A DNA stretch of 64,000 nucleotides from Corallococcus sp. EGB (GTDB lineage Bacteria; Myxococcota; Myxococcia; Myxococcales; Myxococcaceae): the NCBI RefSeq assembly GCF_019968905.1, contig NZ_CP079946.1:8963356-9027355 (forward strand), read 5' to 3'. The notes under the pieces are model-generated. The model had not been told where the DNA came from. It did no database searches and worked only from the letters and a program-made list of their open reading frames with translations. The position numbers and the translations under genes are program-made. Positions 13,141 to 17,453 of the stretch are shown here, piece after piece (positions within the stretch are counted from its first letter, which is position 1; every line of letters begins with the position of its first letter).

Positions 13141-13218
13141 GTGAAGCGCTTTGTCGACAGGTGAAAGGGGCCCGTTAAGCTGGCCCCGGGTTCGCCCGTG
13201 AACCAAGGAGTGGAAGGC

Positions 13219-13800
13219 ATGCCGTCGGACAAGGCCGAGCTCGCCGCCCGGATCGCCGTTCTGCAGTCGGGGGACTCCATCCGTGGACTCATCTTCAAGT
13301 CCGTCTTCGGCCTGGTGCAGCAGCACGCGGGCGCCATCGGGATGGAGAAGCTGCGCGTGGGGGAGCTGGACCACGACTACGCGGAGCTGCGCTCGTACCC
13401 GGCCCGGGAGTTCCTCACGCTCCTGTTCCACACGGCGGACCTGCTGGAGGGCGCGCTCGGCCCCGCGGACGCGGTGTTCCACGCGTGCGGCGAGGTGAGC
13501 ATCACCCGCTACTCCACCGGACCCGGCATGCTGGTGTTCGGCATCATCTCCCGGGGAGACCCCCAGAAGCTCTTCGCGGGCGCGCAGATGGCGTACAGCG
13601 CGGCGGTGTCCTACGGCAACCGCGAGTACCTCACGACGGGCCCCAAGTCCGGCACCCTGCGCATGCGCCGGGACATGATGCCGCCCGCGTACCACGTGGG
13701 CATCCTCACCGGCTCGCTGAAGGTGCTGGGGTTGACGGGCAAGGCCACCGCGAAGCCGCAGGGCATCGACCGCGTCGACTACGACATCGAGTGGACCTGA
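13219..13800 (+). CDS. TIGR02265/DUF2378-family protein
   Basis: 193 residues. ATG 13219 follows AAGGAG with 8-nt spacing, which fixes the start; the in-frame upstream GTG (13198) lacks a site. The protein matches my recollection of the Myxococcus-specific paralogous family TIGR02265 (DUF2378): an alpha-helical N-terminus with SIRGLIFKS, then a FxTLLF helix and a C-terminal beta-rich half ending in a VDYDIEW-like motif. This family is expanded in myxobacteria, with no biochemical role known to me. The fold is reminiscent of ligand-binding heme-NO/V4R-type sensors, but this is inference. Confidence 0.82.
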   Translation: MPSDKAELAARIAVLQSGDSIRGLIFKSVFGLVQQHAGAIGMEKLRVGELDHDYAELRSYPAREFLTLLFHTADLLEGALGPADAVFHACGEVSITRYSTGPGMLVFGIISRGDPQKLFAGAQMAYSAAVSYGNREYLTTGPKSGTLRMRRDMMPPAYHVGILTGSLKVLGLTGKATAKPQGIDRVDYDIEWT

Positions 13801-13864: not shown

Positions 13865-14878
13865 TCAGTCGACGCGGGTGTAGGTCACGTCCAGCTGCGC
13901 CACCACGCGCTCACCGACGGACGCCCAGCAGGCGAAGGTGTGGTCCGCGCCGCGCACGTGGGTGCGGTGCGCGCCGAACACCACCGTCTGGCCCGCGTAG
14001 GCCAGGCTGTCCGCGGACAGCTTCACGTCCCTGGCCACGAAGCGGGCGCCAGGGGCCTGCTCCAGCTTGCGGCCCAGCGTGGTCGCCATGCGCGTCATGC
14101 CGCCCGCGACGACGGCCACCGGCATCACCGGGTGCATGGCGAAGTGGCCCTTGCACAGCTCCGAGGTGACCGTGAGCGACGCGGACATCAGGTCGCCGTC
14201 CATGCGGAAGTCCTGGAGGTCCAGCGGCTTGCTGTACGGGTTCTGCCGCAGCTTGGCCCACTCCTCCGGGGTGCGCTGCACGGTGTCCGCGGGGCGCGGC
14301 TCGCGGCGCATCTCCACGCGGGCCTCGCCGAACAGGCGGGCGAAGGCGGCGGCGGACAGCACGTTGTAGTCCACCTCCAGCCTGAACAGCGGCGTGCCGT
14401 CCGACGCGGACAGGAGCGTGCGCGCCGTGCAGGTGCGCTTGCCGGTGTACTCCGCCTGCGCCAGCGCCCACAGCATGTCCGTGGCGCGCTCCTGCGGCGC
14501 CGGCCGCAGCCACTGACCGCGCGCCGCGCTGGCCAGGTAGAAGTGCTGCCCGTCCTTGGGCGCCACCAGCGCCGCGCCGCACGAGCCCAGGATGGCCAGG
14601 TGCCGGCCCGCCTCGCCCAGCCCCAGCGGCATCGCCTCCGCGTCCGGCGCCATCTGCACCGGCACGCGCGCCACCACCTCGCCCGGCAGCACCGTCACGT
14701 CCTTCAGCGCGAAGTACGGATCACGCACGCAGATGCGCGGGTACAGCTCCTGGGCGCTCAGCACCGTGTACGGCGCCGCGTCCGACAGCGGCATCCGCGG
14801 CTCGGCCATCCACGGCATGACGGACTTCACCGGAGAGGCCGGGGACGACACGGGAGCGGAGACGGTGGCCTGGAGCAT
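13865..14878 (-). CDS. Putative tandem hotdog-fold protein (dehydratase/thioesterase-like)
   Basis: 337 residues, cytoplasmic. Two regions look like hotdog folds: residues about 70-190 (a central helix with GSCGAALV, then beta strands around the FRLEVDYNVL segment) and about 215-335. The latter contains HPVMPVAVVAGGMTRM, reminiscent of the 'hotdog' helix of FabA/FabZ 3-hydroxyacyl-ACP dehydratases. Catalytic residues are not certain, so the activity (dehydratase, thioesterase or ketosynthase-associated acyl binding) stays open. ATG 14878 was chosen over 14920 because the intervening residues are basic and unconserved. An unusually structured, low-GC region lies immediately upstream. Confidence 0.6.
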   Translation of the reverse strand: MLQATVSAPVSSPASPVKSVMPWMAEPRMPLSDAAPYTVLSAQELYPRICVRDPYFALKDVTVLPGEVVARVPVQMAPDAEAMPLGLGEAGRHLAILGSCGAALVAPKDGQHFYLASAARGQWLRPAPQERATDMLWALAQAEYTGKRTCTARTLLSASDGTPLFRLEVDYNVLSAAAFARLFGEARVEMRREPRPADTVQRTPEEWAKLRQNPYSKPLDLQDFRMDGDLMSASLTVTSELCKGHFAMHPVMPVAVVAGGMTRMATTLGRKLEQAPGARFVARDVKLSADSLAYAGQTVVFGAHRTHVRGADHTFACWASVGERVVAQLDVTYTRVD

Positions 14879-14931
14879 GGGGGACTGACCTCGTTTCAGA
14901 CGCCGGGTGCCGGGGGACACCTGGCCGCAGG

Positions 14932-15243
14932 GTAACCAAGGACTGTTACGACAGGGCAGGATTTTTCTCTGCCCCGCGAAATGATTCTCGATTTATCGGC
15001 GAAAGTGTTGCTGCCCCGCCATATTTTTCTGTCGGAACCGGAAAAACAGGGCGGAGGCGGTGTAATTTGAAGCAGGCAAGCCCCTGCGTAAAGGGCTGAG
15101 TAGCACCCACTGTCTGACACACATGGGTCTGAAATACCCCTCCCTTTAGGGCCGTGCCCATGTGTTTCCACGGGGTTACGAGGCGGAATAAACCTCAAGC
15201 CCCGCAAAACACGCGCAACACAGCCCGAGTAGGTTTTCTACTC
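14932..15243 (-). promoter_or_regulatory. Stem-loop-rich low-GC leader/intergenic region
   Basis: This region lies between the 3' end of kup and the start of the hotdog-like gene, both on the minus strand. It is markedly less GC-rich than the flanks and carries a series of inverted repeats: 14954-14959/14969-14974 (6 bp), 15016-15020/15050-15054 around a T5/A5 pairing, competing stems 15072-15076/15083-15087 and 15079-15083/15093-15097, a perfect 9-bp pair 15119-15127/15157-15165 enclosing a CCC-TTTA-GGG mini-hairpin, nested 15172-15175/15200-15203 with 15180-15183/15193-15196, and 15227-15232/15238-15243. No riboswitch class I know fits. It could be a structured 5' leader of the hotdog gene or a small RNA on either strand. 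Confidence 0.45.
15227..15243 (-). terminator. Small hairpin downstream of kup
   Basis: A perfect 6-bp inverted repeat (GAGTAG, 5-nt loop, CTACTC) lies 33 nt past the kup stop codon. There is no U-run on the minus strand, so it may be a weak terminator or part of the structured region that continues to 14932. Confidence 0.35.
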
Positions 15244-15275
15244 ATGGGGTGAAGTCATGGTGCGGCGTGGCCGGA

Positions 15276-17189
15276 TTACAGCTCCACCTGACTGCCCAGC
15301 TCCACCACGCGGTTGGGCGGAATCCGGAAGTAGGCGGTGGCGCTGCGGGCGTTGCGGCTCATCCAGGCGAAGAGGGCCTCGCGCCAGACGGCCATGCCGG
15401 GCTTCTTGGTGGGGATGAGCGTTTCGCGGCCCAGGAAGAAGCTGGTGCCCATGAGCTGGAACTGGAGGCCCTTCTCCCGGCAGCGCTTGAGGATGTCCGG
15501 GATGCTGGGGTTCTCCATGAAGCCGTAGCGGGCGACGACGCGCACGAAGCCCTGCTCCAGGGGCTCCACCTCCACGCGCTCGCCCGCGACGACGTGGGGA
15601 ATCTCCTCCGGGATGATGGTGAGGAGCACCACCTGCTCGTGGAGGATCTTGTTGTGCTTCAGGTTGTGCAGGAGCGCGGGCGGGGTGCCCTCCGGGTTGC
15701 CCGTCATGAAGATGGCGGTGCCGGGCACGCGCACGGGCGGGTGGTCCCCGAAGCTGCCCAGCAGGTCCTTGAGGCTGAGGCTGGCCGCGCGCAGCTTGCC
15801 GGCGAGGATGTCCCGGCCGCGCTTCCAGGTGGTCATCAGCGTGAAGATGCAGACGGCGAGCAGCAGCGGGAACCAGCCGCCGTCTGAAATCTTCACCGCG
15901 TTGGCGCCGAAGAAGGACAGGTCCACCAGCAGGAACAGCCCCGCGACGGGCAGGGCCACGGCGCGGCTGACGCCCCAGCGCTCGCGGGCCACCACGTAGG
16001 CGAGCACCGTGGTGATGGCCATGGTCGTCGTCACCGCGATGCCGTACGCCGCCGCCAGCCGGCTGGAGGAGCCGAAGCCCAGCACCAGCGACACCACGCC
16101 CACCAGGAGCACGCCGTTGAGGCCGGGCAGGTAGATCTGCCCCATCTCCTCCGCGGAGGTGTGCACCACCTCCATGCGCGGGCTGTAGCCCAGCTGCATG
16201 GCCTGGCGGGTAATGGAGAAGGAGCCGGAGATGAGGGCCTGGGACGCGATGACCGCGGCGCCGGTGGCCAGGGCCACCAGCGGGTAGCGGGCCCAGTCCG
16301 GAGCCAGGAGGAAGAAGGGGTTGCGGGCGGCCTCCGCGTGGCGCAGGAGCAGCGCCCCCTGCCCCAGGTAGTTGAGCACCAGCGAGGGCAGCACCAGGCC
16401 GAACCACGCGCGCTTGATGGGGCCCGAGCCGAAGTGGCCCATGTCCGCGTAGAGCGCCTCTCCGCCCGTCACCACCAGGAACACGGCGCCCAGCACCAGG
16501 AAGCCGTGCCCCCCGTTGTCGATGAAGAAGTGCACGCCGTGCAGGGGCGACAGGGACCAGAGCACCGCGGGGTTGTGCAAGAGCTCCTTCAAGCCCAGGA
16601 CGGCGATGACCACGAACCACAGGCTCATGAAGGGGCCGAACACCGCGCCGATGCCGCCGGTGCCCTTCCTCTGCACGAGGAACAGCAGCCCCAGGATGAT
16701 GAGCGAGATGGGCAGGACGTACGGCTCGAAGACGGGGGTGGCCACGCTCAGGCCCTCCACCGCGCTCAGCACGGAGATGGCCGGGGTGATGAGGCCGTCG
16801 CCGTAGAGCAGCGCCGCGCCGAAGATGCCCAGGGTGATGAGCACGGGCCGGGCGCGGTGGGACTGCCCCCGGGGCCGGTGCATGGCCAGCGCCATCAACG
16901 CGAGGATGCCGCCCTCGCCCCGGTTGTCCGCCCGCATCACGAAGATGAGGTACTTCACCGACACGACGATGATGAGCGACCAGAAGATGAGCGACAGCAC
17001 GCCCATCACGTTCGCCGGCGTCGGGGTGATGCCGTGCGGGCCGGTGAAGCACTCGCGCAGGGCGTACAGCGGGCTGGTACCGATGTCTCCGTAGACGATG
17101 CCCAGCGCGCCCAGCGCCAGCATGAAGATGCGTTTGGGAGAGTCCGGCCCTTCTGCAGGGGCGGACGGTGATTCCGAAGGTGCGTTCAC
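15276..17189 (-). CDS. kup: Kup/Trk-H low-affinity potassium uptake protein
   Basis: 637 residues from the GTG at 17189, close to the usual length of about 620-630. Twelve membrane helices occupy the first 450 residues, starting with the family signature LGALGIVYGDIGTSPLYALR. Other conserved stretches are GALLYGDGLITPAISVLSAVEG and the GDGGHG-like pore segments. A cytoplasmic C-terminal domain follows. The protein symports K+ with H+ across the inner membrane. The longest open frame starts at 17366, but its first 59 residues are unlike the family and collide with the divergent kinase promoter. It is divergent from a triple-GAF sensor kinase. Confidence 0.93.
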   Translation of the reverse strand: MNAPSESPSAPAEGPDSPKRIFMLALGALGIVYGDIGTSPLYALRECFTGPHGITPTPANVMGVLSLIFWSLIIVVSVKYLIFVMRADNRGEGGILALMALAMHRPRGQSHRARPVLITLGIFGAALLYGDGLITPAISVLSAVEGLSVATPVFEPYVLPISLIILGLLFLVQRKGTGGIGAVFGPFMSLWFVVIAVLGLKELLHNPAVLWSLSPLHGVHFFIDNGGHGFLVLGAVFLVVTGGEALYADMGHFGSGPIKRAWFGLVLPSLVLNYLGQGALLLRHAEAARNPFFLLAPDWARYPLVALATGAAVIASQALISGSFSITRQAMQLGYSPRMEVVHTSAEEMGQIYLPGLNGVLLVGVVSLVLGFGSSSRLAAAYGIAVTTTMAITTVLAYVVARERWGVSRAVALPVAGLFLLVDLSFFGANAVKISDGGWFPLLLAVCIFTLMTTWKRGRDILAGKLRAASLSLKDLLGSFGDHPPVRVPGTAIFMTGNPEGTPPALLHNLKHNKILHEQVVLLTIIPEEIPHVVAGERVEVEPLEQGFVRVVARYGFMENPSIPDILKRCREKGLQFQLMGTSFFLGRETLIPTKKPGMAVWREALFAWMSRNARSATAYFRIPPNRVVELGSQVEL

Positions 17190-17453
17190 GGCCCCCGACT
17201 TAGCTGAACCCGGGCCCACCGCAACGACTGCCGACACACTCCTTTGGTTTCCAACCGCTTCAGGTGCTCCCATGTGCGCGCACGGCTCCCTGCCCCCGGG
17301 GGTGCCGGGCCGTGGAACGAGGCGGGTGCCCGCCACCAACGCTTCCGGGGGGTGGGTGTCGAGCATCCACAGAAATCAGGGATGGCGGGACCTGAGACGC
17401 AGAGCGCGGTGGCCGCGTGCGTGTTCCCATGGCGGGTGCAACGGGGGGACGGC

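Follow-up and report, generated by a model that had tools for sequence, protein, structure and literature searches.

A likely RNA leader and a candidate promoter upstream of a double-hotdog gene in Corallococcus sp. EGB

Genes and composition of the locus

The window analysed here is a stretch of 64,000 nt from the one-contig, 9.43-Mb genome of Corallococcus sp. EGB. The segment studied, 14932–15243 (312 nt), occupies the gap between kup and a gene with its ATG at 14878, both on the minus strand:

13198–13800, plus strand: gene for a DUF2378 protein (Pfam 5.8e-47), convergent with the hotdog gene
13865–14878, minus strand: gene for a double-hotdog protein of 337 aa, its second half FabZ/FabA-like (NCBIfam FabZ 9.8e-5, below cut-off)
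15276–17366, minus strand: kup, a K+ transporter (Pfam K_trans 6.7e-186, K_trans_C 2e-58), with a provisional start codon position

The first-pass annotation, made from the sequence by eye, had called the gene at 14878 hotdog-like, and rightly so. The FabZ similarity is weak, the Pfam match to FabA is below threshold and a PDB match to (3R)-hydroxymyristoyl-ACP dehydratase has an E-value of 0.015, while the AlphaFold2 model (pLDDT 79.5) contains two hotdog units. Foldseek gave TM values up to about 0.5 of the query, and among the matches listed most were double-hotdog acyl-CoA or acyl-ACP thioesterases, together with LnmK and a mycobacterial dehydratase.

The segment had also been described as low in GC and as carrying at least six inverted repeats, and both statements hold. 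Its GC content is 0.538 (53.8%) against a mean of 0.702, a value as low in 0.2% of the 312-nt windows in 464 kb of sampled sequence (the window together with 20 stretches of 20 kb each), and a repeat search counted six inverted-repeat pairs within 14880–15280. Nine perfect Watson-Crick stems have 6 bp or more (loops of 3–60), compared with 3.58 ± 1.80 in 300 dinucleotide shuffles, four of which reached nine; for stems of at least 7 bp (2 vs 0.84, reached by 60/300 shuffles) or at least 8 bp (1 vs 0.21, reached by 58/300) the excess is not significant. The minus strand of the 312 nt folds at -132.2 kcal/mol with a z-score of -5.88 (-5.5 in a second run), below all 88 control strands drawn from windows with a GC of 0.62 or less (minimum -4.01), and the plus-strand fold is weaker (z -3.14). 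Part of the minus-strand stability is owed to hairpins at 15162–15212 that most relatives lack.

Two direct repeats of 20 nt, 80% alike and 42 nt apart, lie at 14969–14988 and 15011–15030 on the plus strand. The segment is single copy in the genome, with other matches limited to 18–33 nt at E-values of at least 0.22, and a dispersed repeat was rejected.

Hairpins on the kup side

Of 96 family genomes, 22 have DNA similar to the segment, among them the full set of 16 from the genus (one of these a Myxococcaceae MAG). Comparison divides the segment into a kup 3' hairpin, a putative promoter and a predicted leader of about 179 nt that reaches the ATG at 14878, so that the functional unit extends below 14932, as far as the start codon at 14878–14876. 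The part nearest to kup contains the following:

15227–15243, minus strand: hairpin GAGTAG-AAAAC-CTACTC after the kup stop codon, with at least 80% of the stem retained in 14 of the 15 other genus genomes
15162–15212, minus strand: long imperfect hairpin, conserved in part of the genus only
15119–15165, minus strand: 9-bp stem with a mini-hairpin, the stem found in 1 of 15 relatives

In the first of these, 16 of 22 changed cells in the alignment of the 15 relatives still pair, and the hairpin, which has no U-tract, is probably the 3' end of the kup mRNA. The outer GTGTTT/AAACAC arms of the long hairpin occur in 7/15 relatives and its middle CGGGG/CCCCG stem in 1/15. The perfect 9-bp stem enclosing a mini-hairpin, reported in the first-pass annotation, is present (15119–15127/15157–15165, with CCC/GGG at 15142–15151 inside); only 13 of its 74 changed cells are paired among the relatives, and the mini-hairpin CCC/GGG is retained in eight of the 15.

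Upstream of the leader (15111–15140, minus strand), GGGTG-N6-CACCC and, after it, TTGAC and GCGTCG form a block recognised by eye. It is retained in Myxococcus, Pyxidicoccus and part of Corallococcus (also in L053, L059 and L068), also occurs where kup is no longer adjacent to the leader, and could serve as an operator or an additional promoter.

Candidate promoter

Between the kup-side hairpins and the predicted leader are two short boxes and a pair of overlapping stems:

15087–15092, minus strand: putative -35 box TTTACG, identical in 16/16 genus genomes, with fixed 17-nt spacing
15064–15069, minus strand: putative -10 box CAAATT, CANNTT in 16/16 genus genomes
15072–15097, minus strand: overlapping stems that span the -35 box and the greater part of the spacer

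TTTACG-N17-CANNTT ends 183–186 nt upstream of the ATG in all 16 genus genomes. Nine of them have an identical or nearly identical spacer and seven a different one, and a search of 800,000 control strand-bases found the combination nowhere. A generic sigma-70 scan did not have the site among its calls. The sequence at 15092–15064 is best read as a promoter, with a predicted transcription start at about 15057. An earlier guess, CAGACA (15116–15111) with CTTTAC (15093–15088), was rejected: its -35 element is not kept across the genus, unlike TTTACG/CANNTT.

The overlapping stems, 15072–15087 (stem a) and 15079–15097 (stem b), are where the first-pass annotation had placed them. Their interpretation as the competing stems of a riboswitch or attenuator is not supported, since both fall within the candidate promoter. 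Because they lie inside its -35 box and spacer they are probably outside the transcript. Stem a is found in 11/15 relatives, eight of them with the same letters, and 4 of 18 changed cells pair; stem b is not simply lost, being found in 13/15 with pairing in 16 of 25 changed cells.

Predicted leader

The promoter would initiate an mRNA near 15057, with a 5' leader of roughly 179 nt in which an upstream hairpin is followed by a P1-P2 hairpin, by P3, and then by the Shine-Dalgarno sequence and the ATG at 14878. The predicted elements, in order of transcription, are:

15016–15054, minus strand: PA, first hairpin of the predicted leader, from the repeat search; by eye it recurs in many relatives with other arms
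14987–14993, minus strand: P1 5' strand AATCGAG, in 15/15 relatives, 4/5 changed cells paired
14934–14940, minus strand: P1 3' strand CTTGGTT, partner of 14987–14993; P1 encloses P2
14949–14978, minus strand: P2 hairpin (CGCGGGGCAG ... CTGCCCTGTCG), 7-bp core in 15/15 relatives
14906–14921, minus strand: P3 hairpin GGTGTC-CCCC-GGCACC, in 15/15 relatives, 4/7 changed cells paired
14885–14899, minus strand: weak CTGA/TCAG hairpin with the Shine-Dalgarno GAGG (14892–14889) in its loop, in 11/15 relatives

Within the genus, 24 of 25 changed cells of P2 still pair, mostly as G-U. PA shows no strand preference, its z-score being equal on both strands; its inner stem occurs in 8/15 genus relatives (0/30 changed cells paired) and its outer stem in 7/15 (21/44 paired). 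None of the six changed cells of the CTGA/TCAG hairpin is paired in the 15 relatives, and P3 is broken in one Myxococcus clade of 11 leaders, where its predicted pairing is 0.07. For a further outer stem, P0, good predictions come from clade C only, and from Citreicoccus when the context is shorter; its mean predicted probability in the genus is at most 0.05.

A minus-strand ORF of 103 aa (14896–15207) was rejected as coding, with in-frame stops in at least 10 of 15 genus relatives. Among short ORFs of at least five codons whose end lies no more than 6 nt beyond the main ATG, the most frequent start column is shared by 24/45 leaders and preceded by a Shine-Dalgarno sequence in one, and a leader peptide was set aside.

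Distribution and linkage

An orthologue of the hotdog gene was found in 57/96 family genomes, and upstream regions were taken from 56 of these, excluding G087 (a split match). The leader alignment comprises 45 of the 56; the other 11 (six of g3, which is Archangium, four of g6, and G050) were unalignable by eye and were left out. A covariance model covering the 135 nt immediately upstream of the ATG, built from the 45 leaders, had no match at E ≤ 0.01 in the 11 excluded regions. It gave one strong match per genome (E ≤ 8.6e-18), immediately upstream of the hotdog orthologue, in 45/96 family genomes. Since the model was built from those same leaders, these matches are expected, and the informative part is the weak matches elsewhere: there were 12, with E-values of 0.04–0.96 and 34 candidates scored per genome. 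Across the class, a threshold of E ≤ 0.01 recovered the same 45 of 147 genomes and no further one.

Among ten chosen genomes, six (G073, G079, G063, G056, G054 and G070) have 2.5–4.6 kb between kup and the hotdog gene, and in these the leader still adjoins the hotdog gene. The element therefore belongs to the hotdog gene. The kup matches in G056, G063, G057, G054 and G070 are interrupted by one or two stops within the alignment, and may be N-terminal over-extensions or broken copies. A low-scoring tRNA (32.9 bits) lies upstream of the hotdog gene in G079 (L066 865–937).

Orthologues of the Archangium group and g6 (L072–L081) carry a different leader, in which by eye a TAGGGT/TAGAAT box lies near a GTGTCGG-NN-CCGACAC hairpin resembling P3. 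This is possibly an ancestral short leader.

Rfam searches found nothing at the gathering threshold in the whole window, one chance microRNA match (E 9.5) in 14800–15300, and only tRNA in the 14 relatives searched out of 45. The first-pass annotation had matched no known RNA class by eye. No terminator-like site was found in 14800–15400.

Conservation of the predicted structure

In alignment A3, 77.9% of cells pair, compared with 32–48% when slid. Paired cells, doubly changed cells and the covariation score were each above 500/500 shuffles, under a null that ignores the tree, with no excess for pairs with double changes or for pair types (reached by 397 and 336 of 500 shuffles). A phylogeny-aware covariation test, modelled on R-scape (G-test with APC, null alignments simulated on the tree), found 0/34 pairs significant in A3 and in A4, which is without a minus-strand match inside L053 (E 0.0069); the best pair had an E-value of 0.2. 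Identical rows were counted once in the shuffle and covariation tests, leaving 42 of the 45 leaders. Mutual information between columns was dropped because it was dominated by differences between clades.

Alifold predicted P1, P2 and P3 from the genus alone, and again from clades C, D and E together; among single clades, D alone lacked P1 and E alone lacked P3. At the aligned columns the predicted pair probabilities are 0.16 for P1 in D, 0.07 for P3 in E and 0.23–0.45 for P2 in C. Scored in the held-out clades, P1 had 69/109 changed cells paired (0.633; null 0.286; p 0.006), and its changes comprise 30 G-U and 3 A-C, as in an RNA on the coding strand. P2 had 57/163 paired (p 0.09), with more A-C (35) than G-U (17), a bias not expected of an RNA helix, or else a sign of misalignment. 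For the whole genus structure the held-out result is modest (200/581, p 0.013), and for changes on both sides p is 0.17. Judged by P1, pairing is retained beyond chance where the sequence changes.

At 135 nt the 45 leaders average a z-score of -2.25 for the coding strand and -1.18 for its complement, compared with -0.55 for 300 control strands of 135 nt; the leaders are related to one another and the controls all come from the Corallococcus sp. EGB genome. At 200 nt the means are -3.11 and -1.93, the controls being matched at 135 nt only. The window's own 135-nt leader has a z-score of -2.15, as low as in 33/300 control strands (11%). Folding is above composition-matched controls for the 45-leader set and for the 312-nt segment, and not for the window's 135-nt leader alone.

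The first-pass annotation had named absent compensatory substitutions and unalignable homologues as observations that would speak against a structured RNA, and each turned out mixed: 0/34 pairs covary significantly, yet P2 pairing persists in nearly all changed cells of the genus, and the unalignable upstream regions are 11 of 56, against 45 that align.

Interpretation

We favour reading the segment, with moderate confidence, as a region that regulates the minus-strand double-hotdog gene, made up of a promoter and a folded 5' leader; an RNA leader upstream of this gene is likely. Our confidence is slightly reduced by the weak model matches, the z-score of the window's leader, the single-clade folds and the shuffle results. 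Of the two roles first suggested for the region, a structured leader for the 14878 gene or a free small RNA, the former is the best reading and the latter is not supported. The leader would most likely act in cis on the translation or stability of this one mRNA, perhaps via a protein or metabolite linked to acyl metabolism.

An unlikely alternative is that a transcription factor binds the inverted repeats as DNA operators, with the promoter further downstream and P1 and P2 not RNA at all. P2 is palindrome-like and conserved in sequence, and its held-out changes have no G-U bias; PA is equally stable on both strands, and covariation does not reach significance. However, the strong G-U bias of the P1 changes (30 vs 3), the persistence of P2 pairing within the genus, the stronger folding of the coding strand and the conserved boxes at fixed 17-nt spacing upstream of P1 and P2 all argue against it.

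Somewhat harder to sustain is a conserved promoter and spacer whose folding is incidental. It would account for the 0/34 significant pairs, for a predicted fold that shifts from clade to clade and for the unremarkable z-score of the window's own leader, but not for the held-out pairing of P1 or the mean z-score of the 45 leaders relative to the control strands.

A metabolite riboswitch or attenuator would be a special case of the leader reading, and we think it improbable. Stretches such as GCAAC and GAAT are conserved and unpaired in the model, a GGAAGC/GCTTCC-type stem could by eye compete with P1 in two clades, and P0 could compete with the Shine-Dalgarno hairpin. Yet the competing stems are not common to all clades (P0 being barely predicted in the genus), Rfam gave no riboswitch match in the window or the 14 relatives, no terminator-like site was found in 14800–15400, and a single gene per genome is involved, the element having no strong match before other genes. 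A free small RNA between kup and the hotdog gene would suit the strong minus-strand folding but is highly improbable, given conservation that runs on through the Shine-Dalgarno into the ATG and the lack of a terminator-like site in 14800–15400. Both the riboswitch and the free small RNA are unsupported.

Our verdict is that the leader is of an ordinary kind, lineage-restricted and without earlier description; a search of literature listings found no account of such a leader. More speculatively, and with little probability in our view, Corallococcus, Citreicoccus and Myxococcus/Pyxidicoccus could share in it an undescribed class of regulatory RNA. Such an RNA would respond to a signal from acyl metabolism, be it a metabolite or a protein, and act as a switch on translation of the double-hotdog enzyme, P0 or P1 exchanging with alternative stems near the ribosome-binding site. 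What the analysis provides is a leader RNA open to testing and a precisely placed candidate promoter, both belonging to a FabZ-like double-hotdog gene that is uncharacterised and that social myxobacteria conserve. It also illustrates that striking competing hairpins can turn out to be promoter sequence.

Comparison with known systems

Bacterial promoters of the primary-sigma type consist of a -35 box, a 17-nt spacer and a -10 box. TTTACG-N17-CANNTT resembles them in its exact spacing in 16/16 genomes, but its -10 box is far from TATAAT and the generic scan did not call it. The predicted leader shares with riboswitches its position and its conserved unpaired stretches, and differs from them in that no Rfam match, second regulated gene, terminator-like site or strong sequestering stem was found. 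Structured 5' leaders that act in cis on their own mRNA include those of ribosomal-protein genes. Here the downstream gene is instead that of a FabZ-like double-hotdog enzyme, and Rfam has no matching family, but the leader resembles this group in serving one gene, in its one strong copy per genome, in adjoining the Shine-Dalgarno sequence and in being restricted to a lineage.
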